Source: Yoonia sp. I 8.24 (lineage in GTDB: Bacteria > Pseudomonadota > Alphaproteobacteria > Rhodobacterales > Rhodobacteraceae). From it: a stretch of 64,000 nucleotides of DNA. The notes under the pieces were generated by a model that worked only from the letters and a program-made list of their open reading frames with translations, ran no database searches and had not been told where the DNA came from. A program made the translations under genes and the position numbers. Shown here one piece after another: positions 4,680 through 62,083 of this stretch. How positions within the stretch are numbered: position 1 is the first letter of the stretch; every line of letters starts with the position of its first letter. The stretch is taken from positions 124,001-188,000 of the forward strand of contig NZ_JACXGQ010000001.1 of the NCBI RefSeq assembly GCF_022096995.1, given 5' to 3'.

Positions 4680-6226
4680 CCAAAGGCGTCGGGCATGCTG
4701 GCTTTTTTATCGGCCACATAGGTACGTAGCTTGGCCTCGATTTCAGGATCAAGCGCGGGTTGTTGATAGGTATCAATCATCTTCTTGACCCGCGCCGAGG
4801 CAAGCGTTTGCGTGTCGCGCGCGCCTTCTTCGTCCCAGGTCTCAAATGGTTTATAATCAAGCAGATCGGTCCGCCAGAAGGCATCCTTAAAATTGGCTTG
4901 CGTATGCGCACATCCCAAATAGTGACCGCCCGGCCCAACCTCTGCGATCGCGTCCATCGCTTGGCCGTTCTCGGACATATCCACGCCTTTTGCAAAATGA
5001 TGCAAAGTGCCTAGCTGATCCGCATCCATCACGAATTTCTCAAAAGAGGCCACCATGCCCCCTTCGAGCCAACCGCATGCGTGCAACATGAAGTTAACAC
5101 CAGACAAAAGCCCCATTTTCAAGCTGCTTGCGGTTTCATAGCCTGCTTGCGCGTCGGGGAGCTTGGATCCGCAGAATGACCCGGCTGACCGATACGGCAG
5201 CCCCATACGGCGGGCCAATTGCCCGGCCCCATAGGTGATATGTTCGGCCTCCGGCGTGCCGAATGTCGGCGCACCAGAGTTCATGTCGATAGATGTCACC
5301 ATCGTGCCGAAAATCACCGGCGCACCGGGACGAACCAACTGCGAATAGGCAACGCCAGCAAGCACTTCGGCCAGGGTTTGCGTCAACGTACCCGCGACAG
5401 AAACCGGGGCCATCGCACCACCCACAATGAAGGGGCTGATGATCGCGGCCTGATTGTTGGCGGCGTAAATCTCAAGCGCGCCCATCATCGTGCTGTCAAA
5501 TGTCAGTGGCGAGTTGATATTGATCAGCGAGGTCATCACTGTGTTTTCTTGGACGAATTCTTTACCGAATAGGATTTCGCACATTTCAACGGAATCTTGC
5601 GCGCGCACAGGTTCGGTCACGGCCCCCATGAACGGCTTATCGCTATAGACCATATGCGCCAGCAACATATCAAGATGCCGCTTATTCACTGCAATATCAG
5701 TCGGTTCGCACACCGTACCGCCAGAATGATGTAGCCATTTCGACATATAGCCAAGCTTCACGAACTTTTCAAAATCAGCAATCGTCGCATAGCGCCGTCC
5801 GCCTTCAGCGTCCCGCACAAATGGTGGGCCATAAACTGGGGCAAGTACAAGATTGTCACCACCAACAACAACATTGCGTTCAGGGTTGCGGGCGTGTTGA
5901 GTGAATTTTGATGGCGCCGTCGCACATAGCTTGCGGGCCAGCCCACGCGGGATTCGCACACGTTCGCCATCTATTTGTGCACCCGCGGCCCTCCAGCGTT
6001 CCAGCGCAGCGGGGTTATCGACAAAGTTCACCCCGATTTCGGCCAAGACGGTTTCGGCATTCGCCTCAATGACTTGCAGTGCCTCTTCGGTCAGCACTTC
6101 GTAGTTGGGGACATTGCGTTCGATATACTTCGCGGTCTCAATGCTGACGGCCGTACGTTCGGCCCGGCGCGCAGCCCCGCCACCACCGCGCGCGCGGCGT
6201 CCTGATTTGACTGGTGCATCTGACAT
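4676..6226 (-). CDS. MttB-family methyltransferase homologue without pyrrolysine
   Basis: This 516-residue protein spans the whole trimethylamine:corrinoid methyltransferase (MttB) family fold and includes the family segments GTMVTSIDMNSGAPTFGTPE and LPDAQAGYETA. The reading frame has no internal amber codon, so it is a non-pyrrolysine member. The characterised relatives of this kind (for example MtgB of Desulfitobacterium) demethylate glycine betaine or other quaternary amines onto a corrinoid protein. No corrinoid protein or methyltransferase partner gene is adjacent, so the substrate is open. Many roseobacters encode such proteins. The N-terminal 20 residues are basic and glycine-rich. Confidence 0.85.
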   Translation of the reverse strand: MSDAPVKSGRRARGGGGAARRAERTAVSIETAKYIERNVPNYEVLTEEALQVIEANAETVLAEIGVNFVDNPAALERWRAAGAQIDGERVRIPRGLARKLCATAPSKFTQHARNPERNVVVGGDNLVLAPVYGPPFVRDAEGGRRYATIADFEKFVKLGYMSKWLHHSGGTVCEPTDIAVNKRHLDMLLAHMVYSDKPFMGAVTEPVRAQDSVEMCEILFGKEFVQENTVMTSLININSPLTFDSTMMGALEIYAANNQAAIISPFIVGGAMAPVSVAGTLTQTLAEVLAGVAYSQLVRPGAPVIFGTMVTSIDMNSGAPTFGTPEAEHITYGAGQLARRMGLPYRSAGSFCGSKLPDAQAGYETASSLKMGLLSGVNFMLHACGWLEGGMVASFEKFVMDADQLGTLHHFAKGVDMSENGQAMDAIAEVGPGGHYLGCAHTQANFKDAFWRTDLLDYKPFETWDEEGARDTQTLASARVKKMIDTYQQPALDPEIEAKLRTYVADKKASMPDAFG

Positions 6227-6401
6227 GACGGTGTCCCCTTTGACATTGTTCCGTCCGTTTTATCGCTCCGCGCACCTGCACCTTGCAATTTTTGCGCCGT
6301 TTTTGACCTGAAAACGACATCGACGAATGAATCCCATTTTACAAAGCCCAGAATGCCCGCGCCCTCTTGCACAAATTCCAGACTGGCATTACCGAAGCGC
6401 C

Positions 6402-7961
6402 ATGGAAAACAGCACCCACGAACGCCTTCTCATCATTGATTTTGGCAGCCAGGTAACGCAGCTGATTGCGCGTCGCCTGCGCGAATTGAGCGTCTATTGT
6501 GAAATTCACCCTTACCAATTGGTGACGGACGCATTCTTGGCCGAGTTCGCGCCAAAGGCGGTGATCTTGTCAGGTGGCCCCGACAGCGTAACTCGCGAAG
6601 GATCGCCCCGCGCACCGCAGTCTGTCTTTGATCTGGGCGTGCCGATCCTTGGCATTTGCTACGGCCAGCAAACAATGATGACCCAATTGGGCGGCAAGGT
6701 CGAAAGCGGCCATGGTACCGCGGAATTTGGCCGTGCTTTTGTAACGCCAAAAGAACCGCTCGATTTATTGCAAGGTTGGTTCGCCACTGACAAAGAACAA
6801 GTCTGGATGAGCCACGGCGACCACGTGTCTGAAATCGCACCGGGTTTTGACGTTTACGGGACATCGCCTAACGCCCCATTCGCGGTGACCGCCGATGTGT
6901 CACGCCATTTCTATGCAGTGCAGTTCCACCCCGAGGTCCACCACACCCCCAACGGCGCAAAACTGTACGAAAACTTTGTACGGATCGCAAGGTTTAGCGG
7001 TGACTGGACGATGGGCGCCTACCGCGAACAAGCGATTGCGGCAATCAAAGAACAAGTCGGCGACAAAAATGTTATCTGCGCGCTTTCGGGTGGCGTTGAT
7101 AGTTCGGTTGCTGCGGCGCTACTGCACGAAGCCATCGGCGATCAGCTCACTTGTGTATTTGTTGACCACGGTTTGCTGCGCCTGAATGAGGCCGAAGAAG
7201 TCGTCAGCATGTTCCGTGATCACATGAACCTCAAGGTTATTCACGCGGATGAAACTGAGCTTTTCTTAGGCGAACTTGATGGGCAATCTGACCCAGAAAC
7301 CAAACGCAAGATCATCGGCAAGCTGTTCATTGATGTGTTTCAGAAATACGCCAATGAAATCGAAGGGGCAGAATTCTTGGCTCAAGGGACGCTTTACCCT
7401 GATGTCATTGAATCTGTGTCCTTTTCTGGCGGCCCTTCGGTCACAATCAAATCGCACCACAATGTCGGCGGCCTACCCGAGAAAATGGGCTTGAAACTGG
7501 TCGAACCTCTACGTGAGTTGTTCAAAGACGAGGTACGCGCGCTTGGTGTCGAACTTGGGCTACCACCAAGCTTTATCGGGCGGCACCCCTTCCCTGGTCC
7601 GGGTCTTGCGATCCGCTGCCCCGGCGAGATCACGCGCGAAAAACTGGAAATCCTACGCAAAGCCGACGCTGTCTATATCGACCAAATCCGCAAACACGGG
7701 CTTTACGACGATATTTGGCAGGCGTTTGTGGCGATCTTGCCGGTGCGCACCGTGGGTGTGATGGGTGATGGCCGGACGTATGATTTCGCTTGTGCGCTGC
7801 GCGCAGTGACATCGGTAGATGGGATGACGGCAGACTATTACCCGTTCACCCATGAATTCCTTGGTGAAACCGCGACGCGGATCATCAATGAAGTCCAAGG
7901 CATCAACCGCGTGACCTATGACATCACGTCAAAACCCCCCGGTACAATCGAATGGGAATAA
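6402..7961 (+). CDS. guaA: GMP synthase (glutamine-hydrolysing)
   Basis: This enzyme converts XMP to GMP using glutamine and ATP. The class-I amidotransferase domain is N-terminal, with the nucleophile in GICYGQQ and the His-Glu pair in HPEVHHT. The ATP-pyrophosphatase domain follows with P-loop [10 protein letters not shown], and the dimerisation domain ends PPGTIEWE, the invariant GuaA C-terminus. I start at ATG 6402 ([17 protein letters not shown]), giving 519 residues as in other GuaA proteins; a 25-codon extension to 6327 is open but not conserved. The 3' end overlaps the next gene by ten bases. Confidence 0.97.
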
Positions 7962-46980: not shown

Positions 46981-47166
46981 ATGGAAATAAACAAATTAAA
47001 ATCAACAATATACAAGAATGAAGTGGCGCGCTCAGAAGGAGGTTATTCGAACTCTTCTGACAGTGTTTCAAATCCAGATTTTGAAGAGATATTTGAGGAA
47101 CTTGAGCGTTGGAATGACGTTCTCAAGGATCACAAAACCACGATCCTGCGAGGGCCCCGCCCATGA
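46981..47166 (+). CDS. small acidic protein at head of mob operon
   Basis: This 61-residue protein starts MEINKLKSTIYKNEVARSEG and is acidic in the second half (NPDFEEIFEELERWNDVL). It overlaps the mobC start by four bases (ATGA), so it is the first gene of the mobilization operon. No family is recognised; an accessory relaxosome or regulatory role is plausible from position only. A start at 46927 is possible but would run through the palindrome. Confidence 0.5.
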   Translation: MEINKLKSTIYKNEVARSEGGYSNSSDSVSNPDFEEIFEELERWNDVLKDHKTTILRGPRP

Positions 47167-47519
47167 GCCGCCTCGCACCGTTTTCATTAAGATTGACCCC
47201 AGCAGAACGATCTCAGCTTGAAGCACAGGCTGGGGCGATGCCGCTGTCCTCGTATATAAAGTCCGTGGTTTTTGCCGCTGAAGCTCCCAAATATCGAAAG
47301 CGGCGCAAACCACCTGTTGCGGAGCAACAGCTTTTGGCTGAGGTTCTCGCCCGTCTTGCCCAAACGCGGCAAGCCAACAATCTCAATCAGATTGCCAAAC
47401 ACCTGAACCAAGGAACGTTGATCCTCGATCCTGAATTGGAACAGGATTTGAAATGCGCCGTGGCTGAAGTGGCTTGGATGCGGACAACTTTAATGCAGGC
47501 TTTGGGGGTGAAATCATGA
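47163..47519 (+). CDS. mobC: MobC-like relaxosome accessory protein
   Basis: The 118-residue protein starts LAPFSLRLTPAERSQLEAQA, with the ribbon-helix-helix-like opening of MobC proteins, and has the typical LAQTRQANNLNQIAKHLNQG segment. MobC helps the relaxase open oriT. It is coupled at both ends (ATGA overlaps) to the small leader gene and to the relaxase gene. Confidence 0.85.
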   Translation: MSRLAPFSLRLTPAERSQLEAQAGAMPLSSYIKSVVFAAEAPKYRKRRKPPVAEQQLLAEVLARLAQTRQANNLNQIAKHLNQGTLILDPELEQDLKCAVAEVAWMRTTLMQALGVKS

Positions 47520-48784
47520 TCCTCAAAGGTTCGCAACGTGCGGGTGCAACGGCGCTCGCGGATCACCTTATGAATGATCGTGACAATGATCACGTGTTCT
47601 TGCTAGAGTTGAATGGATTTATTTCAGACGACTTAAACGGAGCGTTATTAGAAACACATGCCATTTCAAAGGCAACTCAGTGCAAACAGTTCATGTTTTC
47701 TCTGAGTTTAAACCCACCCAAAGATCATATTGCCACCGAAGAAGAATTTCTTGATGCCGCAGATCGCGCCGAAAAACTGCTAGGACTGGACGGCCAGCCC
47801 CGTGCTATTGTCGTGCATGAAAAGGAAGGTCGTCGCCATGCGCATGCCGTGTGGTCACGCATTGATGCCGATGAAATGAAGGCGATCAATCTGCCCCATT
47901 TCGAAAACAAGCTGCGGGATTTGTCGCGTGATCTGTTTCTAGATCATGGTTGGGTGCTGCCTGACGGCTTAGCAACCTATGGCAATAAGTCACCTCTGAA
48001 TTTTACTCTCGAAGAGTGGCAACAAGCCAAACGCCAAGGTCTTGACCCACGCGAGATCAAGCAGGCGTTTCAACAGGCATGGGAGCGGTGCGATAATCAG
48101 ATAGGCTTCAAGAACGCCCTTGAAGATCGCGGCTATTTCCTCGCTCGTGGTGATCGTCGTGGATTTGTCGCCTTGGATGTCGATGGCAATGTTCATTCCA
48201 TTGCTAAATGGGCGGGCCTCAAAGCCAAAGATGTGAATGCCAAACTTGGCTCGCCGGAAAACCTACCGTCGGTTGATGTCACCCAATCCAACATTCGATC
48301 CAAGGTGTCGCATCAAATGCGCGACTATATCGGTCAGATCAAAGACCGCCAAAACGGTGATCTTGATCCGCTGCGAGATCAGTTGTCCGACATGAACAAT
48401 GCCCACCGCAGCGAGCGCAATAAGTTGAATGACGGCCAATCAAACCGCTGGACTGAGGAAACCAAGGTGCGCTCAGACCGCCTCAATAAAGGTTTACGTG
48501 GTTTGTTTGATCGCCTGACAGGAACCCACAGAGGTATTCAAAATAGCAATGCCAAAGAGGCATTGGCTTGCAGCAAGCGCGATCAAAAACAGCGTGACTT
48601 TATGGTCTTAGAGCAAATGAAAGAACGCCGTGCCTTGCAACGAGAGTTCCAGAAGCTCCGTCGGAAACACATGAAAGACCGTGAAGTGATAGCCCAGAAA
48701 GTCAAGCAGGCGCTCAAGGTCAATCAGTCACAATCACATCAATTCGTACGGTCCCGCAATCGCGGGCCTGATCTTTCAATTTAG
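47516..48784 (+). CDS. relaxase (mobilization nuclease)
   Basis: The 422-residue protein starts MILKGSQRAGATALADHLMN, a common opening of alphaproteobacterial plasmid relaxases, and has the metal-binding histidines in VVHEKEGRRHAHAVWSRID (H101, H108, H110). The C-terminal half is a charged helical region. It should nick oriT and carry the strand into the recipient. The start at 47516 overlaps the mobC stop; an upstream frame to 47474 is rejected. Confidence 0.85.
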   Translation: MILKGSQRAGATALADHLMNDRDNDHVFLLELNGFISDDLNGALLETHAISKATQCKQFMFSLSLNPPKDHIATEEEFLDAADRAEKLLGLDGQPRAIVVHEKEGRRHAHAVWSRIDADEMKAINLPHFENKLRDLSRDLFLDHGWVLPDGLATYGNKSPLNFTLEEWQQAKRQGLDPREIKQAFQQAWERCDNQIGFKNALEDRGYFLARGDRRGFVALDVDGNVHSIAKWAGLKAKDVNAKLGSPENLPSVDVTQSNIRSKVSHQMRDYIGQIKDRQNGDLDPLRDQLSDMNNAHRSERNKLNDGQSNRWTEETKVRSDRLNKGLRGLFDRLTGTHRGIQNSNAKEALACSKRDQKQRDFMVLEQMKERRALQREFQKLRRKHMKDREVIAQKVKQALKVNQSQSHQFVRSRNRGPDLSI

Positions 48785-48801
48785 GCATTTCGGGGGAACT
48801 T

Positions 48802-50652
48802 ATGTCTCGTCAATATCAAGTATTCTTCGCATGCGTCGCACTGACGTTTGCGCTTTTTCTCATAGCTGATCAGGCGTCGGCACAAAGCTATTTCGGGAAT
48901 AGTGGTCGTGTGCGGCAACAAGCCCTAGCACTTACTATGATCAAAGTGGTTTTGGTGGCCATCGTGGTTGGCATTGGCTTTGGGCTGGGTTGGATCATGT
49001 CGCCTCAAGGTCGTGCGTTTCGACGCATCGGCCTGTTGATCCTAGCTGGTTTGCTTGGTCTCGTTGCCATCCTCAACAGTGGGTATCTGGGGTGGATTGC
49101 GGCGTTCACGTTCGCTGTATGTGGATTTTTTGTCGGCATTTTCTTTTGGTTGCGGTCGTCGATTTCTTCGATGATGGACATGCCCGATACTTTTGGGTCC
49201 AGCCGTTGGGCGACTGAGCAGGACATTGAGGAAGCGGGCTTTTTCGAAAACGAAGGCCTCTATATCGGTGAATGCCTGAAAGATGGAGAACTTACTCCAA
49301 TTGAATACAACGGTGATCGGCACTTAATGACCGTTGCGCCGACTCGGTCTGGCAAGGGAACCAGTCAGATCATTCCAAACCTTCTTTCCTATCGTGGTTC
49401 TGTCGTTGTCATCGACCCCAAAGGGGAAAACGCGATGATCACAGCCAAAGCTAGGAAGGATGCAGGATTTGAAGTCCACATAGTTGATCCATGGGGAATT
49501 GTTGAAGCAGAGGGTATTGAGACTTCAACGCTGAATCCTCTAGATTGGCTTGACCCAATGGATAACGAGATCACTGAAAATTCAATGATTTTGGCCGATG
49601 CCCTCGTGATGGCTGAAAACCACAATGACAGCTTTTGGAACGAAGAAGCAAAGGCACTTCTGCAAGGCCTGTTATTACACGTGGCATCCGATGCCGCCGA
49701 AGATGGCTATAGGCACCTCGGGCGTGTCAGGGAAATCTTGGTCTCTGGTAAAGATGAGCTGACTAAGGTCTTCACCAAGATGGCGGAATCCGATCATCAC
49801 ATGATTGCCAGCACGGGTAACCGCTGTTTGCAAAAAGAAGATAAACTTCTTTCGAATGTTCTGGCCTCGGCTCAGGCGCAGACCCACTTTTTAGACAGTG
49901 AATATCTACGTGAAAACATGAAGACCTCTAGCTTCAAGTTTGAGGATTTGAAAACCAAACCCATGACAATCTATTTGGTTCTTCCAGCGGATCGTTTGAA
50001 CACCTTTAGCCGTTGGCTTCGCCTTCTCGTCCAGCAAGCCATCACAGTCAATGCGAGGAACATTCAGACAAAACCTGTGAAGCCAGTGCTGTTCATCTTG
50101 GACGAATTCGCAGCGCTCGGTCGTCTGAGCATGGTCGAACAGGCCTATGGTCTCATGGCGGGATTTGGGATGCAACTTTGGGCCATCGTACAAGATGTGA
50201 GCCAGTTGGAACGCATCTACGACAAAGGTTGGCAATCGTTCGTCGCCAACGCTGGCATGGTGAATTACTTTGGGTCATCTGATCAACGAACCGCAGAGTA
50301 TTTTTCGGCTCTGTGCGGGGAGCAGACGGTTTGGAATTTCAGTTCCGCCGTATCACATGCCTTTAGCAATTCCGTTGGGCAGCAAGGGGGCGGCTCTTCC
50401 AATACCAGTACAAATTCTTCCAACGCGGCCCTGTCACAGCGAAAATTGGCGTTCCCAGATGAATTGATGCGGATGAACAACCGCACACAGATCATCTTGA
50501 TGGAGAACGTACATCCAATCTTAGCCAGCAAGCAGTTCTGGTTTGAAAACGACCGCCTCAAAGAACTCGGCGTCAATTTGCATGATCAAGAAACTGTCGC
50601 TGAACCTGCGCCTGCAGAAGAAATTTTGAACGAGGAACAAAACCATGAGTGA
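48802..50652 (+). CDS. VirD4/TraG-type coupling protein
   Basis: The 616-residue ATPase has N-terminal membrane helices (to about residue 118), Walker A in APTRSGKGTS (179-188) and Walker B in FILDEFAALGRL (431-442), with the VirD4 segment GLMAGFGMQLWAIVQDVSQL. It links the relaxosome to a type IV secretion channel. No VirB-type channel genes occur in the window, so transfer would need a helper element. It overlaps the next gene by eight bases. Confidence 0.92.
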   Translation: MSRQYQVFFACVALTFALFLIADQASAQSYFGNSGRVRQQALALTMIKVVLVAIVVGIGFGLGWIMSPQGRAFRRIGLLILAGLLGLVAILNSGYLGWIAAFTFAVCGFFVGIFFWLRSSISSMMDMPDTFGSSRWATEQDIEEAGFFENEGLYIGECLKDGELTPIEYNGDRHLMTVAPTRSGKGTSQIIPNLLSYRGSVVVIDPKGENAMITAKARKDAGFEVHIVDPWGIVEAEGIETSTLNPLDWLDPMDNEITENSMILADALVMAENHNDSFWNEEAKALLQGLLLHVASDAAEDGYRHLGRVREILVSGKDELTKVFTKMAESDHHMIASTGNRCLQKEDKLLSNVLASAQAQTHFLDSEYLRENMKTSSFKFEDLKTKPMTIYLVLPADRLNTFSRWLRLLVQQAITVNARNIQTKPVKPVLFILDEFAALGRLSMVEQAYGLMAGFGMQLWAIVQDVSQLERIYDKGWQSFVANAGMVNYFGSSDQRTAEYFSALCGEQTVWNFSSAVSHAFSNSVGQQGGGSSNTSTNSSNAALSQRKLAFPDELMRMNNRTQIILMENVHPILASKQFWFENDRLKELGVNLHDQETVAEPAPAEEILNEEQNHE

Positions 50653-51211: not shown

Positions 51212-51547
51212 GTGAAACATCAAAATGTAAGACTGACCCACGGAAGCGAATTAATCGGACGCAAACTCAAGAACTGCTTCGGCGTTGAAGAGATTGCAAT
51301 CATACCTCGCTATAGCTGGAGATATTACGATTGGTGCGTAGAACAAGGCTTCGACATGGTAGCTTGGATTAAAGGTGCTGACGAGGTGCGTGCCCCTCAA
51401 TTAAATTTCAGCGAAAATATTGAAGTTGTTCTTTGGGCAGACGAATGCAAGCGGTTCCATCGGGGCGAGCTCGTACCGCCATGGAATGAGCCAGAGGGTT
51501 GCGTGGATTATATCGAAGATCGCATAAAGAAAGGGAAACCTATTTAG
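51212..51547 (+). CDS. small protein of unknown function
   Basis: The frame opens with GTG at 51212 and gives 111 residues (MKHQNVRLTHGSELIGRKLK). It is a mixed alpha/beta protein with several Trp and Tyr (WRYYDWCVEQGFD). I do not recognise a family. It converges on the serine recombinase gene with a four-base overlap at the 3' ends. The gap of 39 bases after the mob operon leaves open whether it is cotranscribed. Confidence 0.5.
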   Translation: MKHQNVRLTHGSELIGRKLKNCFGVEEIAIIPRYSWRYYDWCVEQGFDMVAWIKGADEVRAPQLNFSENIEVVLWADECKRFHRGELVPPWNEPEGCVDYIEDRIKKGKPI

Positions 51548-52095
51548 TGAACTTCAAATTTCTCTAGTTCATCCAACGCTTTATCCATGGTTCTTGACAA
51601 TCGAGGTCTGCCCACATGAACGCCCCGTGCCTTCGCTGCGGCCATCCCTGCCTTGGTTCGTTCGGATATCAATGAACGCTCATATTCCGCAAAAACGGCC
51701 AACTGCCCGTATAGCATTCGCCCAACGGCGGTGGTTGTGTCGATGCCTTGTGTAATGGCTTGAAAATCCACACCGCGATCTCTCAGATCACTGAGCAATT
51801 GTAGCAGGTGGATCGTTGAGCGTCCTAGTCGATCCAACTTCCACACCGCCAGCGTGTCACCAGACTTTAGGGAGTTAAGCATGTTATCAAGGCCGACGCG
51901 CTTTTTGATTTTCCCAGACACGCCATGATCGCCATAGATCACATTGCAACCTGCGGCTTTCAACGCGTCAATTTGCAAAGCCTCACTTTGGTCCTTGTCA
52001 GACACGCGGACATATCCAACTTTGCGGCCCTTTGATTTGTCATCATCCATGTTGGAATAGTAGCACTTAAAATCGTTCTTTTGAGCGGTTTTCAT
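51544..52095 (-). CDS. small serine recombinase (invertase/resolvase type), short C-terminus
   Basis: The 183-residue protein has a complete resolvase catalytic domain: S32 in VGYVRVSDKDQ, then LAVWKLDRLGRSTIHLL and AVFAEYERSLISERTKAGMAAAK. After GRPRLS only about 17 residues remain, so the C-terminal helix-turn-helix of Hin/Pin relatives appears to be missing. I use ATG 52095 because AGAGGA precedes it; the frame is open to 52272 across the two crossover-like sites. It is divergent from the membrane-protein gene at 52273. Confidence 0.85.
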   Translation of the reverse strand: MKTAQKNDFKCYYSNMDDDKSKGRKVGYVRVSDKDQSEALQIDALKAAGCNVIYGDHGVSGKIKKRVGLDNMLNSLKSGDTLAVWKLDRLGRSTIHLLQLLSDLRDRGVDFQAITQGIDTTTAVGRMLYGQLAVFAEYERSLISERTKAGMAAAKARGVHVGRPRLSRTMDKALDELEKFEVH

Positions 52096-52107
52096 GGTGT
52101 TTTCCTC

Positions 52108-52133
52108 TTGAAAAAAGGGTTCCCTTTCTAAGC
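52108..52133. repeat. candidate DNA-invertase crossover site 1
   Basis: The core AAAGGG-TT-CCCTTT is flanked by TTGAAA on the left and TAAG on the right. The outline CTTGAAAA-core resembles the Hin hixL site. The central dinucleotide is TT on the plus strand. It lies just upstream of the recombinase ribosome site. Confidence 0.5.
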
Positions 52134-52203
52134 CCGCATGGATGAACGGTTTCAGCGTAATCAGCCTTAGAAATTTCCTGTGGAAAACAAGGGCTAGGTG
52201 ACT

Positions 52204-52232
52204 TTGCTGGCGTGATGTGGCATCTCTATCAA
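52204..52232 (+). promoter_or_regulatory. putative promoter inside the candidate invertible segment
   Basis: TTGCTG (52204-52209) and TATCAA (52227-52232) are 17 bases apart and read toward the membrane-protein gene at 52273. The -10 lies in the inner half of crossover site 2, so the whole promoter would flip with the segment. Confidence 0.4.
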
Positions 52233-52251
52233 AAGGGAACCCTTTTGACGC
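52226..52251. repeat. candidate DNA-invertase crossover site 2
   Basis: CAAAAGGG-AA-CCCTTTTG is a perfect dyad around a central AA, with TATCAAAA on the left as in Hin/Gin sites. The central AA is the complement of the TT of site 1, so the two sites are in inverted orientation with centres 118 bases apart. Confidence 0.5.
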
Positions 52252-52272
52252 TCGCGCAAAATTGAGTGTCAC

Positions 52273-52887
52273 ATGTCCAAAACTCCATGGCCTTCGGCAA
52301 CTTCACAAACGCCCTCTCGTCAGGGCGCTCGTTCAACAATCAACCGCACGGCCTTTACCATCACCGCGCAAGTGTTGATGGCCTGTTTCTGCGGGTGGAT
52401 TTTGGTTCATGGTGATTTTCTAATTCTGATCTTTTTGATCCTACCTGCGGCATTGGTTTCGATGACTTTGGCATTGCCAACGCTGGGCTTTGAGGGGAAC
52501 AAAGCGCTGATCGCGGGGGCAGTCATTACACTCATTGCCAATCTGGCGATTGCCTTTGCCGAGGATTTGGACAGTGCAGGAAGATCAATGGTGCCTGCCA
52601 TGACTTCAATGCGGGACACTTTCCTTGTGCCAACGCATTATGTCGCGACATCATCTGCATCCGTCGAATGGTGGCCCAAAGATTCCAATGGGCGCACTTC
52701 GGAAAGGCTATCTCGGGGCATGTGTCTAAAGGTCGTTGAACTTTACGCAGACGGCGAAACCGTCACTGACTATTCGCGGGTTGTTGTTCCTGCCCTTGAC
52801 GGGACACGTTACATTTTGCGCAGTGACATTACATGGCTTGGCAGCGTCCAGCGTTGCGATGAGCACAACCGCTTTGACGGCCAATAA
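52273..52887 (+). CDS. membrane protein of unknown function
   Basis: This 204-residue protein has three hydrophobic helices (ITAQVLMACFCGWILVHGDF, LIFLILPAALVSMTLALPTL and ALIAGAVITLIANLAIAFAE) and then a soluble part with SH3-like beta segments (CLKVVELYADGETVTDYSRV). No family is recognised. It is divergent from the serine recombinase and is placed just beyond the candidate invertible promoter, so its expression may be phase-variable. Its 3' end lies three bases from the convergent ardA stop. Confidence 0.6.
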   Translation: MSKTPWPSATSQTPSRQGARSTINRTAFTITAQVLMACFCGWILVHGDFLILIFLILPAALVSMTLALPTLGFEGNKALIAGAVITLIANLAIAFAEDLDSAGRSMVPAMTSMRDTFLVPTHYVATSSASVEWWPKDSNGRTSERLSRGMCLKVVELYADGETVTDYSRVVVPALDGTRYILRSDITWLGSVQRCDEHNRFDGQ

Positions 52888-52889
52888 TA

Positions 52890-53396
52890 TTACGCGGCCC
52901 GATAAATCAGCCGTTCCCCTGCAACTTCGGTTTCGGTGTAATCCATCGCCAGATCATAAGCGATTGCGCCCATGTCGATGTAGTTGGCCAGATGTTCGGG
53001 AATGTTGCCGAACAGGCCTTCTTCAACAAACTGCTCGGCGAGTTCTTTCATGCTATCGGCGTGATAGATATCAACATCAAAATCTGATGGTGAAACGCTG
53101 TCGGGATCAAAGCTGTATCCGACCTCGCCAACGGCGATGATAAACATGGTTTTGTCGTGATCGTCCCAGCTTTCACAGGCTTCGAAATAATGCCCGATAT
53201 TAGCTTGGTTGATCCCCCAAGCCTTGGCCAGATCACAGTCGATATGGTCACCATCAATGAACTGGATTTCGTATTCTTCGACGGGGTCGCCGTAGTCGTT
53301 TTTGTTTGTAGCGGCCTTGGTTTTGTAGCCTTCTAAATCTTCAAAATAAAATCCATTGGCTGAAATGTCGTACGGTTGTGCGTGTAATGTTGTCAT
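52890..53396 (-). CDS. ardA: anti-restriction protein ArdA
   Basis: ArdA mimics B-form DNA and blocks type I restriction enzymes during conjugative entry. The 168-residue protein is strongly acidic, as required for the mimic, and has family segments such as GFYFEDLEGYK, DCDLAKAWGINQANIGHYFEACE and GNIPEHLANYIDMGAIAYDLA. I start at 53396; 25 upstream codons are open but arginine-rich and unlike ArdA. Its presence fits a transferable element. Confidence 0.9.
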   Translation of the reverse strand: MTTLHAQPYDISANGFYFEDLEGYKTKAATNKNDYGDPVEEYEIQFIDGDHIDCDLAKAWGINQANIGHYFEACESWDDHDKTMFIIAVGEVGYSFDPDSVSPSDFDVDIYHADSMKELAEQFVEEGLFGNIPEHLANYIDMGAIAYDLAMDYTETEVAGERLIYRAA

Positions 53397-54042
53397 CGGT
53401 TTTGTCCTCTTTTTTGATCTGACGGGTTGCGCATGCAACCGTCTGGCTTCCGCCGAGGAGCGGGGGTGCAAGGATCAAAAGTGCCGCAGGCAGGACCAGA
53501 GCCACGCGCAGGTGCAGCGCAGCGAACCGAGCATGGCGAGGACCCACCCTTTGATCCGCGTGGGGGCAGCCGCCCTAGTTGTCATGGGGGTATTGGGGGA
53601 GAAGACAGTCTCCCCTAATTGGCGATCAATCACCACAGGATTGACGAGGGTTTCAAGGGGCTGAGCATCGCCCATTGATCAGGTTCAGCTTTGACAAGCT
53701 GACGGCATACAATCCGCGCAGGGTTGGAATATGGGGTGTTGGGGAGAGATGAAATTTCCCCGACGAGGGATCAAACACAGATATGTTTGCATGGTCATAG
53801 AAAGGCTCAACGCCGCCTATGATCATTAGCTTTGGGGGATACAACGGGGGAGCGCAGCAGCCCCCTTGTCAAGACGTGTGGTACTACCACACACATCTTG
53901 CATCATCACTTATGATGGAAGATGGCCTGAAAGGATCGCAGCGCATGGTATCATCTGACACACAGCTCGCGCGCGCCCTTAACCGTTCCAGATTACCATT
54001 GGATTAGAGGTCGTGACGAGCTTGAGAACAGCTTTCGCACTT
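53397..54042. other. 646-bp gene-free region rich in short hairpins
   Basis: No frame looks protein-coding. Hairpins are seen at about 53,596-53,616 (GGGGAGA / TCTCCCC), about 53,735-53,757 (TTGGGGA / TTTCCCC), 53,841-53,870 and 53,876-53,892. The last two form the oriT-like site listed separately. The first two have similar surroundings (GGGGTRTTGGGG), suggesting degenerate repeats. Confidence 0.5.
53841..53898. other. candidate origin of transfer or other recognition site
   Basis: ACAAC-GGGGG, AGCGCAGCAG and CCCCC-TTGT make one hairpin. Directly after it, GTGTGGTA-C-TACCACAC (53876-53892) is a perfect inverted repeat, embedded in a longer imperfect dyad CAAGA...TCTTG. GC-box plus adjacent dyad is the usual plan of mobilization oriT sites. 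It lies 5 kb from the relaxase gene, so the assignment is tentative. Confidence 0.35.
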
Positions 54043-54888
54043 TCAACGACCTAACTTCTGTTTAATTCCAAAGCCAGTTGCTTCATCATTGAATTTTGGA
54101 GAAAAACGCACTTCGAACTCGTCCTCAAGAACATAATAGAGCATGTTTAGCTTTTTTACGAACAAGAGGCTGAACTTTTTGAAATCACGTTGTAGGTTCA
54201 CAAGCCCCTCGCGAAAGAATTTTTCTTGGTCAATAGGACGGCCAAACTGATCGTGTCCTGTCATGAGCATTCCTCGATGTTCATGAGCGGTCGAAGATTT
54301 GAATGAGAGATCATCGGTAGTGTATTCTCGCTCCCAACCTCGGTGAAAACGTTCATTTCTTTCGTTTCTCAATTCAGAAATCGCGCTGTCCATTTCCTTG
54401 AGAACCGCTACAACAGCTTCAGATACACCTATCTTTTTCAGGTTTTTTATCGAACAAATTTGAGGCCGAATGTTAGCTTCAAAAACCTCGTTGACGAGTA
54501 ATAGTGCGCAGTCAAACAGCGACACATACCGCATCAAAAAAGTATCTGCGCATATGTTCAGCCACTCATACCTAGTTACTGGGAGGTTTGGCTCAACAAC
54601 AAACCGATCTTCCAACCATAGCGTATCGGCGACATGGTTCAGAGATTCCATTCTTCTAGTCAAAGCAGACAGGACATTGTTAACGTTCAGTGCGTACAGA
54701 CAATCGGGGTACTGGGCCATCTCTTCGTATGTTTCGAAACTATATGCGACTATGCTTAGGTCATATATCCGTCCAACGAAGCGATGCTCGTCAGATGGCA
54801 GAACGATCTCTTTAAGATATGCTGTGCGACGACGCGGTGCTTTTTGAGATGAATTTCTTGGTGATGAATGATCAATCTTGTTTGACAT
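54043..54888 (-). CDS. HEPN-like protein of a candidate defence module
   Basis: This 281-residue protein has a basic N-terminus and a mainly helical body. Residues 174-182 (RNERNERFH) give an R-x4-H motif (R177, H182), the active-site pattern of HEPN ribonucleases; the surroundings recall Cthe_2314-type HEPN proteins. It is AT-rich in codon use compared with the core genome. It is divergent from the ParB-like/ATPase pair, with the two starts about 50 bases apart. RNase or toxin activity is inference. Confidence 0.6.
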   Translation of the reverse strand: MSNKIDHSSPRNSSQKAPRRRTAYLKEIVLPSDEHRFVGRIYDLSIVAYSFETYEEMAQYPDCLYALNVNNVLSALTRRMESLNHVADTLWLEDRFVVEPNLPVTRYEWLNICADTFLMRYVSLFDCALLLVNEVFEANIRPQICSIKNLKKIGVSEAVVAVLKEMDSAISELRNERNERFHRGWEREYTTDDLSFKSSTAHEHRGMLMTGHDQFGRPIDQEKFFREGLVNLQRDFKKFSLLFVKKLNMLYYVLEDEFEVRFSPKFNDEATGFGIKQKLGR

Positions 54889-54937
54889 GTCGCAACTATT
54901 ACACGAAAATATAGACTTTAAAACAACCGAGTATATT

Positions 54938-56242
54938 ATGAAGCTTCAAAACATTTCACTAGATCAATTGGAAATTAATCGCGCCAACGACAGACATGGA
55001 GAACTCGAAAACGAAGCCTCCGCGATTGCTTGGTTGTTTAACACCCGCGAAGTTCACATGAAGAATCTCGCGCGAGATATTGTTGCTACGGGCAAAGTAT
55101 ATGAGCCTCCCTTGGTTTCAGCAGAAAATGGAAATTATCTTATCTTTGATGGGAATAGGCGAACTACTTGCCTAAAGTTGCTAAACAACCCATCAAAGGC
55201 ACCCACTACGCAACTTCAGGATTTTTTTAGAAATCTAAAGGAAGAGTGGGACGGGATTTTTCCGACTGAAGTGTTGTGTCAAGTTGAAAATGATCGAGAC
55301 GATATAGATGAAATTCTGTTCCGTCGTCATACGGGCACGCAAAATGGTGTAGGTCAGTCCACATGGGATGACCGAATGAAAGACAACTTTGTAGCAAGAT
55401 CAGGAAAAAAGACTGGTTTCAATATTGCGGATGAAATTGAGCAACGATTGGGCGCTGCGGGAATGCTGCCCGCTACCAAAATCCCTAGATCAAACTTAAA
55501 TAGGCTGCTGTCCTCCGAAGCGATTAGAAACCGTTTCGGTTTCTCAGGTCAAAACAAAGAGTTCAAGTTCACACATGAACCTGAAGTAGCCTTAAAGACG
55601 CTCTCACGGTTGGCAGAAGATTTTTCCAGTGGAAAGGTTGTTTTAGGGGACATTTGGGATAACGAAAGCAAACTTCGCTACGTAGAAAAACTCGATAGGC
55701 AGAAGGTTCTTCCGTCAGGCGATGACCTTCTTTCTGACGCAGGTAACGGCTCGAACCCAAAACCGAAACAAAAGAAACCGAAACCTACGCCAAAACCTCA
55801 ACCTTCCAAGCGAACGACACTCATACCGCAGAAGGACTTCGGGATATTGTGGACGGGAAAACAACATCGAATCCAAAATATTTGGGAAGAGCTACAGTTC
55901 CACTTAAATACTGAGAAACACACGAATGCTGTCTCAGTGCTTTTTCGTGTGCTTTTGGAGCTTTCTGTCGAAAACTATATCAGCGAAAACTCAGTATCCG
56001 TAAATGACAACGATAAGCTCGCAAGAAAGATCGAAAAGATCGGCGATGCATTATTTAGCCAAGGCAAAATCGATCAAAAGCAACGGTCCGCAACAAAGAA
56101 ATTTAGCCAATTAGACCAGCTTGTGTCCGCTGACACACTAAACAGATACGTGCATTCCCCAAATTTTTCCCCATCCGCAAAACACCTTGAATCTGTATGG
56201 GATACTATGGCCGACTTAATTGTCGCGTGTTTGAAAGGGTAA
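54938..56242 (+). CDS. ParB-like domain protein with HEPN-like C-terminus
   Basis: The 434-residue protein has an N-terminal ParB/Srx fold with the signature LIFDGNRRTTCLKLL (residues 68-82) and EILFRRHTGTQNG (125-137). A Lys/Pro-rich linker (about 273-292) follows, then a helical domain (VSVLFRVLLELSVENYI and LNRYVHSPNFSPSAKHLESVW) resembling HEPN-type domains. ParB-like folds bind CTP/ATP and DNA or act as nucleases in defence proteins. ATG 54938 is used; starts at 54887 or 54878 would overlap the divergent gene. It is three bases upstream of the ATPase gene. Confidence 0.7.
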   Translation: MKLQNISLDQLEINRANDRHGELENEASAIAWLFNTREVHMKNLARDIVATGKVYEPPLVSAENGNYLIFDGNRRTTCLKLLNNPSKAPTTQLQDFFRNLKEEWDGIFPTEVLCQVENDRDDIDEILFRRHTGTQNGVGQSTWDDRMKDNFVARSGKKTGFNIADEIEQRLGAAGMLPATKIPRSNLNRLLSSEAIRNRFGFSGQNKEFKFTHEPEVALKTLSRLAEDFSSGKVVLGDIWDNESKLRYVEKLDRQKVLPSGDDLLSDAGNGSNPKPKQKKPKPTPKPQPSKRTTLIPQKDFGILWTGKQHRIQNIWEELQFHLNTEKHTNAVSVLFRVLLELSVENYISENSVSVNDNDKLARKIEKIGDALFSQGKIDQKQRSATKKFSQLDQLVSADTLNRYVHSPNFSPSAKHLESVWDTMADLIVACLKG

Positions 56243-56245
56243 CCA

Positions 56246-58450
56246 ATGGCAGACAAACTTTCTTTCGATCTCGAGTATTGTTATGGGATCCCTCAGTTTT
56301 CAGAAGAGCTTGAATTTACTCATAAGGGATATGCAATTTACGCGCCTAATGGCGTGATGAAAACGTCGTTGACCAAAACACTTCTTGATGTCCAAAACGG
56401 CAATGAACCAAAAGATTTGGCATTCCCCGATAGGGATAGCAAATGCATTATTACTCTGAATGGAGATGCTCTAAAAGGTGAGGAGGTGCTTGTCGTTCGA
56501 TCTTACGATGAGACTTACTCGTCTGGCGAAGTCTCGACGTTACTTGCGAATTCTGAATTGAAAGCTAAGTACGAAGCGGTCCACAAGAAAATTGGCGATG
56601 CAAAGAAAAACCTCGACAAAAAATTGCGAAAACTTTCTGGATTTGGTGTGCGAGAAAACATTGATCCAATAATTGAAGGCTTGTTTTCCAAAAATTACTA
56701 TGAGGCACTTTTAAGTGTCGAAGGTGAGTTGAATAGCCTATATAAATCTGGTTTTTCGGATGCGATCTACAAAGTAATTTTTGATCCAAAGGTCGTCAAC
56801 CTTCTTCAAGAACAAGGCGTTGAGACGTCTGTCGAAGAGTTCGCAGAAAAATATGATAGCTTGACCGAGCAATCGCCAATTCTTCGTCAAGAATTTCAGT
56901 ATCACAACATTAGTCAGGTACAACAACAACTTAAAACCAACAATTTTTTTGATGCTGGTCACAGCATCAATTTGACTGACAAAGGAACCGACGAAAAAAT
57001 TGAGTATGGCACTGACGATGAACTAAATGAGAAGATTACGTCGGAAAAACTTCGAATTTTGGGTGATGAAGAGCTGAATAAACGATTTGATAATTTTAAT
57101 AAAAAATTCAAAAATAAAGAACTGCAAGAATTTCGAGACTACATAACTCAGAACCGTCATTTGCTTATTGAGCTAAAAGACCTAAGCCAATTCAAGCGAA
57201 AGCTGTGGCTTCAATATTTTCTTGCGGCGAAAAAGGAATTTGACGAACTTATCTCAGAATACAAAGTTGGCCAACTTGAGCTGACGGACATCATTCGAAG
57301 CGCAGAAGCTGACGTGAATGATTGGGATGCGGTGATTACCCAATTCAATCAGCGTTTCCTCCACCTCCCATTTAAGCTTAAGGTCGCAAACAAATCCGAT
57401 GTGATTTTGAAGGACCTAGCACCATCAATAAATTTTGTATTCGAAGATAATGGCGAAGAGAGAGTCTATAAATCAACAGAAAGAAGTGAGCTAATCCGTG
57501 TGCTAAGCACAGGTGAAGCTAGAGCTTTGTACATTTTGAACATAATGTTTGAGGTGCACACCAGATGGAAGTTTCGCACAAAGACACTGTTTGTTTTCGA
57601 CGACATTGCAGATTCATTCGATTACAAGAATAAGTTTGCGATTATCGACTATCTTGAATTCATTATTAGCGCCGAGGATGTTAGCTTTCTCGTTATAGTT
57701 CTGACGCATAACTTTGACTTTCTTCGTGTTATTGAAAGTCGAGGAATTTGTAAAACTAGTCAGTGCCGTATGGCATTTAGAAACGAAAACAAAGTCGAGT
57801 TAGAGGTATTCAAAAGATCCGACATCGGAAATCCATTCAATAAGTGGAAAACAAGGTTGGGCGAAATTATTATCCTTGTCGCCTACATTCCGTTCCTACG
57901 AAATGTCATCGAGTATACTAAGGGTAAAAAAAATGGCGACGGAAGCCATAATGAGGACTACCAATCTTTAACTAATATGCTGCATTTCAAAGATGATGTG
58001 GAAGCTTTGACTGTCGGAGACTATCGGAGTGTTTTTGAACGAACACTTCCAGACACCACGTTTCCAATCAGGGATAACAGCGAAACTGTTATCGATTTGA
58101 TTTTGGATGCTGCCGATGAGTGCTTGGGAAAACCTGACGGCATTAATCTTGAGCAGAAAATTGTACTATCGATGGCGATTAGACTGAAAGCTGATAAATT
58201 TACAATCGAAAAAATACGTTCAGAAGATGCGGAGTATGTCCTACCCTCTAGCAACCAAACACCGAAGCTAATTCGAGATTATTGTAAACTTTTCAACAAT
58301 CAACACGATGAAATCGCAATTCTGCGAAGGGTTTCTCTTCTCACGCCATCGAACATTCACCTTAATGCTTTCATGTACGAACCGATACTCGACATGGGAT
58401 ATGGCGAACTAAAACAACTCTACCAAGACGCAACAAATAAGCTAACTTGA
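56246..58450 (+). CDS. SMC/Rad50-like AAA ATPase with degenerate P-loop
   Basis: The 734-residue protein has a split ABC-type ATPase: N-terminal P-loop region YAPNGVMKTSLTKTL (residues 32-46), a long helical middle (about 105-375), the signature LSTGEARAL (420-428), Walker B TLFVFDDIADSF (447-458) and H-loop LTHNFDF (486-492). A C-terminal domain of 240 residues follows. The P-loop lacks the usual GxGK spacing glycine (GVMKT instead of GSGKS). Such ATPases power nuclease effectors in PrrC-, RloC- and Old-like defence. It is AT-rich and forms an operon with the ParB-like gene. Confidence 0.8.
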   Translation: MADKLSFDLEYCYGIPQFSEELEFTHKGYAIYAPNGVMKTSLTKTLLDVQNGNEPKDLAFPDRDSKCIITLNGDALKGEEVLVVRSYDETYSSGEVSTLLANSELKAKYEAVHKKIGDAKKNLDKKLRKLSGFGVRENIDPIIEGLFSKNYYEALLSVEGELNSLYKSGFSDAIYKVIFDPKVVNLLQEQGVETSVEEFAEKYDSLTEQSPILRQEFQYHNISQVQQQLKTNNFFDAGHSINLTDKGTDEKIEYGTDDELNEKITSEKLRILGDEELNKRFDNFNKKFKNKELQEFRDYITQNRHLLIELKDLSQFKRKLWLQYFLAAKKEFDELISEYKVGQLELTDIIRSAEADVNDWDAVITQFNQRFLHLPFKLKVANKSDVILKDLAPSINFVFEDNGEERVYKSTERSELIRVLSTGEARALYILNIMFEVHTRWKFRTKTLFVFDDIADSFDYKNKFAIIDYLEFIISAEDVSFLVIVLTHNFDFLRVIESRGICKTSQCRMAFRNENKVELEVFKRSDIGNPFNKWKTRLGEIIILVAYIPFLRNVIEYTKGKKNGDGSHNEDYQSLTNMLHFKDDVEALTVGDYRSVFERTLPDTTFPIRDNSETVIDLILDAADECLGKPDGINLEQKIVLSMAIRLKADKFTIEKIRSEDAEYVLPSSNQTPKLIRDYCKLFNNQHDEIAILRRVSLLTPSNIHLNAFMYEPILDMGYGELKQLYQDATNKLT

Positions 58451-60476: not shown

Positions 60477-62083
<1,607 letters not shown>

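Follow-up and report, generated by a model that had tools for sequence, protein, structure and literature searches.

A pair of near-perfect palindromes standing in opposite orientation between a small serine recombinase gene and a membrane-protein gene raises the question of whether the DNA between them inverts, and whether it turns the neighbouring gene on and off in doing so. The locus lies in a 64,000-nucleotide stretch of the Yoonia sp. I 8.24 genome, here called the window, and coordinates are those of the window unless another locus is named. Its features are as follows.

51544 to 52095, minus strand: small serine recombinase of 183 aa, without a C-terminal helix-turn-helix (HTH), its catalytic domain closest to DNA invertases
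52108 to 52133, plus strand: predicted recombination site on the recombinase side, with core AAAGGG-TT-CCCTTT at 52114-52127 and exchange expected at TT 52120-52121
52122 to 52237, no strand: predicted invertible segment in orientation A, from comparison of its interior with relatives
52179 to 52187, minus strand: DnaA-box-like motif TTTTCCACA, 3.5 bp from the segment midpoint
52198 to 52226, plus strand: candidate promoter GTGACT (52198-52203), 17 bp, CATCTC (52221-52226), with TGG before, named from consensus and RTGAC conservation
52226 to 52251, minus strand: predicted recombination site on the membrane-gene side, an inverted copy, with core AAAGGG-AA-CCCTTT at 52232-52245 and exchange expected at AA 52238-52239
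52273 to 52887, plus strand: 204-aa protein with 3 predicted membrane stretches, the presumed switched gene, with no Pfam, NCBIfam or PHROG match

The two 26-bp dyads of the original prediction, inverted with TT and AA at their centres, are borne out by their letters, which when read directly are AAAGGGTTCCCTTT at 52114-52127 and AAAGGGAACCCTTT at 52232-52245. Their centres fall at 52120.5 and 52238.5, 118 bp apart, and a repeat search of the window recovered the two dyads as an inverted pair of 15 nt with 100% complementarity. Perfect copies of AAAGGGNNCCCTTT occur in the window at the two dyads only. With up to two mismatches there are 5 copies in the window against 2.4 expected, and a third dyad-like match at 51530-51543, with 2 mismatches and at chance level, was dropped.

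The arrangement recurs in related bacteria. Searches of plasmids with blastn and tblastn found three Roseobacter-group plasmids with a 71% identical recombinase, and all three carry the same dyad pair, 117-118 bp apart. The pattern AAGGGTTCCCTT-N90-118-AAGGGAANCCTT occurs in 4 of 394 genomes of the family (6 loci, each spanning 130 bp) against 0 matches for the reversed control pattern, which argues that the pair is not a product of chance. A relaxed pattern, present in 6 of the 394 genomes, adds four loci with other centres, GT in L044 and AT in L045, L046 and L048; the AT centre is self-complementary and so would not by itself fix the orientation of the sites in synapsis. A similar pattern was found in 24 stretches of the genome_contigs collection and in none of the viral contigs. 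By title, 15 of these 24 are Rhodobacterales, and the remainder are Hyphomicrobiales, Cohaesibacter, Nitratireductor, Novosphingobium, an alphaproteobacterium and one MAG labelled Cellvibrionaceae. Centre spacing across the 24 is 115-119 bp and a recombinase starts 64-102 bp from the dyad pair in 20 of them; the exceptions are L027, where a transposase gene lies in between, L013 and L017, where only the start of the recombinase is present (the L013 frame is broken and L017 is at the edge of the data), and L019, where no recombinase was found beside the pair. With duplicate copies of the same contig removed, dyad pairs 115-119 bp apart are present at 33 distinct loci, window included, and at 29 of these the start of a same-subfamily recombinase is no more than about 125 bp away (that of L024 is truncated). 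In the recombinase tree the subfamily, 28 rows, forms one clade (support 98/97). Eight outgroup plasmid loci lack the pair, and L002, L004, L013 and L017, tested alongside, have it. The window's own genome holds a second such locus (L002/L047, C2:500011-500141), with dyads of centre GT/AC 119 bp apart, a recombinase without the HTH and a divergent gene whose product, judged by eye, resembles an exported protein; as its centre differs from the TT/AA of the window, the two switches of this genome should stay independent.

The genes around the window locus are those of a mobile element:

47163 to 47519, plus strand: MobC-like protein
47474 to 48784, plus strand: MobA/VirD2-type relaxase
48802 to 50652, plus strand: TraG/VirD4-type coupling protein
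47163 to 50652, plus strand: mobilization module formed by the MobC-like protein, relaxase and coupling protein
52890 to 53471, minus strand: ArdA-like antirestriction protein
60477 to 61985, plus strand: large serine recombinase, its frame open past 61985, the probable integrase of the element
61999 to 62075, minus strand: tRNA-Arg (ccg)

Gene order runs from MobC, relaxase and TraG through two small genes to the recombinase, the switch, the membrane gene and the ArdA-like gene. Further right, the open frame of the large serine recombinase runs towards the adjacent tRNA-Arg (ccg), which is likely the attachment site of the element. Among the other 32 loci relatives of the window's TraG-like gene are present in 22, of its relaxase in 9 and of its ArdA-like gene in 14, with at least one of the three in 28 of the 32, many of which have short flanks. 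Between the ArdA-like gene and the large recombinase, at 54043-58450, the window also encodes a HEPN-domain protein (PF18730), a 454-aa protein without a Pfam match and a 734-aa protein that by eye resembles an ATPase; together they may be a defence set carried by the element.

Both orientations of the segment exist among homologues, as the original prediction would have it. Of 26 alignable interiors, 22 have the window's orientation (A) and 4 (L003, L005, L022 and L027) are inverted (B) between unchanged flanks. Compared with L004 and the window, L003 and L005 have the segment the other way round, with interior alignment scores, same orientation versus inverted, of 27 versus 142 for L003-L004, 31 versus 149 for L004-L005, 21 versus 86 for window-L003 and 11 versus 71 for window-L005, the top score of any single shuffle being 48; L022 and L027 are inverted relative to L006 (27 versus 112 and 22 versus 115). 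Scored against 7 reference segments, the four B loci do better inverted with every one of them, and the A loci do better direct, 19 of the 22 with all 7 references and L019, L023 and L029 with 6 of 7; the motif mask in this alignment was still scored as a match, alike in both orientations. L002, L044, L045, L046 and L048 were oriented from the midpoint motif and then checked by alignment, L019, which has no recombinase, was oriented by its flank, and L046 and L048 were both kept among the 26 although they are 90% identical paralogues. Seven diverged loci (L012, L013, L017, L021, L028, L031 and L034) stand outside the count; L028 and L031 lean to A, scoring higher direct against 7 of 7 references (best 61 versus 34 and 53 versus 28), and the other five are mixed, with direct higher against 3 to 6 of the 7.

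The point of exchange can be read from the arms of the sites. In the inverted loci the outer flanks and the direction of the recombinase are constant and the inner half-sites are exchanged: the inner arms of L004 are CCCTTTCGCATCC on the left and TTATCAAAAGGG on the right, and their counterparts have traded places in L005, whose left outer arm is unmoved, as is the odd GCC in its right one. Since this GCC stays with its flank in L003-L005, the exchange maps to the dyad centre. Both orientations between unchanged flanks, with half-sites swapped, point to a DNA-inversion switch, and comparison across relatives shows that the dyad-flanked segment inverts in this family. The excess of A has a binomial probability of 0.0005, kinship ignored, and mapping orientation onto the recombinase tree (23 rows, L027 not among them) takes 2 changes or more.

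The window recombinase itself combines an intact catalytic domain with a missing DNA-binding domain. It matches PF00239 (1.8e-43), its catalytic serine S32 and the conserved arginines R30, R89, R92, R140 and R146 are invariant in 19 rows, and among solved structures it comes closest to 4m6f (E 4.5e-37) and 3uj3 (1.6e-36), both entries for the DNA invertase Gin. A Hin-type identity agrees with these nearest structures and falls short at the C-terminus, where the HTH of Hin and Gin is absent and 19 residues follow the GRP motif. With HTH presence called by reading the tails, plus a tblastn check, 16 of 29 readable subfamily members are HTH-less, with tails of 3 to 48 residues (the window, L002, L012, L014, L015, L016, L021, L022, L025, L026, L027, L030, L033, L044, L045 and L046), and 13 bear the domain (L003, L004, L005, L018, L020, L023, L028, L029, L031, L032, L034, L035 and L048). 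A tblastn search with seven HTH tails found no HTH remnant beside the HTH-less genes, with weak matches elsewhere and the controls L003, L018 and L048 recovered. An AlphaFold model of the window recombinase, of medium confidence (mean pLDDT 70, pTM 0.56), has the catalytic fold, one long helix at 123-156 and one weak helix at 168-178.

An enzyme without its HTH might be dead, the window switch frozen and its orientation a relic, a reading that we consider unlikely while giving it real weight. A search of the window's genome turned up no HTH-bearing enzyme among small serine recombinases: the three further PF00239 genes recovered comprise another HTH-less copy and two with open frames of 546 and 537 codons. 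Broken copies also exist: L027 has a transposase gene (IS110-like by eye) at 5731-6927 between recombinase body and switch, L024 has at about 2191-2388 a truncated recombinase with an in-frame fusion to an apparent tyrosine recombinase end (by eye), and both are probably locked. What speaks for living enzymes is the pattern of descent and constraint. In one clade of the recombinase tree (96/94) 13 of 14 rows are without the HTH, the exception being L048; L012 and L021 lack it separately from that clade, and the tree needs 3 changes of HTH state. Between the window and L026 recombinases dN is 0.035 against a dS of 1.15, and dN/dS is 0.015-0.096 in the six HTH-less pairs with a defined ratio, from 18 pairs run, of which 10 gave no ratio owing to saturated dS; HTH-less recombinases thus look constrained. 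The catalytic residues are invariant, and HTH-less L022 is inverted where its nearest HTH-less rows are not. The tails of the window, L014, L015, L027, L030 and L033 share the motif (L/M)S(K/R)xMxKALxxLE, which also speaks against decay. A separate observation concerns one genome (G221), whose paralogous switches L046 and L048 share 90% identity along some 2 kb and diverge near the recombinase C-terminus, L046 without and L048 with the HTH, as if the domain had been exchanged.

The gene on the right was predicted to encode a membrane protein, and 3 membrane stretches are indeed predicted in its product. A plasmid search with the 204-aa protein gave no match, and of the other switch loci just L026 and L015 have a gene that matches its own. 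By eye, most right-hand genes show no sequence relationship across loci; they usually start within about 60 bp of the site. A membrane-like stretch is present in 24 of 27 of them versus 48 of 173 control ORFs, a comparison in which the controls partly overlap with the right-hand genes and the 27 contain near-copies; L013 was left out of the set, its right side being that of the recombinase. Those of L004 and L031 are lipoprotein-like (L004 by eye), and that of L034 has no such feature. As for the promoter, the letters of the TTGCTG-17-TATCAA element first proposed are present, but it was set aside because TTGCTG, the supposed -35, is unconserved in relatives and TATCAA belongs to the conserved half-site. 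The better-conserved GTGACT-17-CATCTC, starting 6 bp upstream, is our best promoter candidate, its function a guess from consensus. It faces the membrane gene as sequenced and would face the recombinase if flipped. In 21 of 26 aligned segments RTGAC precedes the right dyad by 35-36 bp; the five without it at that place are L002, L044, L045, L046 and L048. From this arrangement we infer that flipping would switch transcription of the neighbour gene.

A segment inverted in evolution need not be a promoter switch. It could regulate the recombinase alone or be a by-product, for example of multimer resolution of the element, and the consensus basis of the promoter, the resolvases within the superfamily and the presence of the module on plasmids among mobilization genes all lend themselves to such an account. 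It is nonetheless improbable in our judgement given inverted sites at a fixed spacing of 115-119 bp, a right-hand slot so often membrane-like and close to the site, and RTGAC at a fixed distance from it. That the dyads are only repressor operators or autoregulatory binding sites of the recombinase, as near-perfect palindromes at the edge of a candidate promoter might suggest, is hardly credible, and this reading and that of a res site are rejected on the inversion evidence, since an operator does not account for the four relatives, of 26, whose interiors are inverted and whose half-sites are exchanged.

The middle of the segment carries a further conserved element. The midpoint motif of the window, also written TGTGGAAAA, takes the form TGTGGAWAA and stands 2-4 bp off the midpoint in each of the 26 aligned segments, of which 21 were partly defined by possession of the motif and the other five were found via the dyads alone; it is absent from the seven diverged segments (0 of 7). 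The DnaA-box consensus is TTWTNCACA. On the opposite strand the motif reads TTWTCCACA and matches that consensus, which suggests a role for DnaA. In L012 and L021 (two contigs, one MAG) a match to the IHF consensus lies 1.5 bp off the midpoint. IHF at the centre was discarded as a general feature, as a midpoint match occurs in these two loci alone and the matches in L004, L005 and L028 are more than 30 bp off centre. A second conserved stretch, approximately AACGRTTT, is seen about 20 bp inside the recombinase-side site, in the left half of the aligned segments.

Taken together, the window locus is very probably a self-contained DNA-inversion (phase-variation) switch, and one that may be active in this strain. 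The recombinase at 51544-52095, or one of its relatives, would exchange strands at the centres of the two inverted AAAGGG-NN-CCCTTT sites and so flip the 118 bp between them, a segment that would hold one outward promoter. In the present orientation this promoter would point at the membrane gene, with the target on and the recombinase off; when flipped it would point at the recombinase, with the target off and the recombinase on, a state that should favour flipping back. Making recombinase, the inverted state would not last long, in keeping with the excess of A. A protein on the DnaA-box-like motif probably bends the very short loop, activates the promoter, or both. Copies of the switch recur among mobilization genes on mobile elements of Alphaproteobacteria, chiefly Rhodobacterales, and the gene that they face usually encodes a membrane or exported protein differing between elements, perhaps an exclusion or surface protein, a guess made from its place in the transfer module and its diversity.

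A bolder proposal, which we regard as doubtful, is that these are natural DNA invertases without a C-terminal DNA-binding domain, in which the catalytic domain and arm would read the longer AAASSSNNSSSTTT core, DnaA (or IHF in some lineages) near the midpoint would fold the 118-bp loop and tie flipping of the membrane gene to replication initiation, and paralogous switches would be kept independent via TT, GT and AT centres. An open-access literature search found no report of this switch in Roseobacter-group mobile elements, to whose biology it would add a compact, probably self-regulating inversion switch. Should the HTH-less enzymes be active, they would run contrary to the common assumption that small serine recombinases find their sites by means of an HTH or a grafted DNA-binding domain, and would be of use as minimal recombinases. 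Through the midpoint motif a link between DnaA and site-specific recombination becomes testable.

Among known systems, Tn3-type res sites are multi-subsite, with deletion between two copies. Tn3 and gamma-delta resolvases share with the window enzyme their superfamily and a plasmid setting, with a weaker structure match (2.6e-24); unlike res, the locus here has two inverted sites whose interior inverts. Several thousand invertons are reported in a review of phase variation (PMC11868660). Invertons such as those of Bacteroides resemble the present locus in placing a short segment between inverted sites before a surface or membrane gene. They differ in that here the switch has its own recombinase adjacent and probably inside the circuit, sits in a mobilization module and has a fixed midpoint motif. 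The Hin and Gin invertases resemble the present system in that the recombinase has DNA invertases as its nearest solved structures and acts, by prediction, at inverted dyads with 2 bp at their centre. According to PMC5175349 the catalytic core of Gin requires AAASSWWSSTTT, and the catalytic domain has been retargeted by adding other DNA-binding domains; the core here, AAASSSWWSSSTTT, carries an additional S on either side of its centre. PMC3798978 shows that Fis contacts the Hin DNA-binding domain. Whereas Hin and Gin bind via their HTH, the window protein and 15 other readable members are without one and 13 have it, and compared with Hin and Gin the segment here is just 118 bp.
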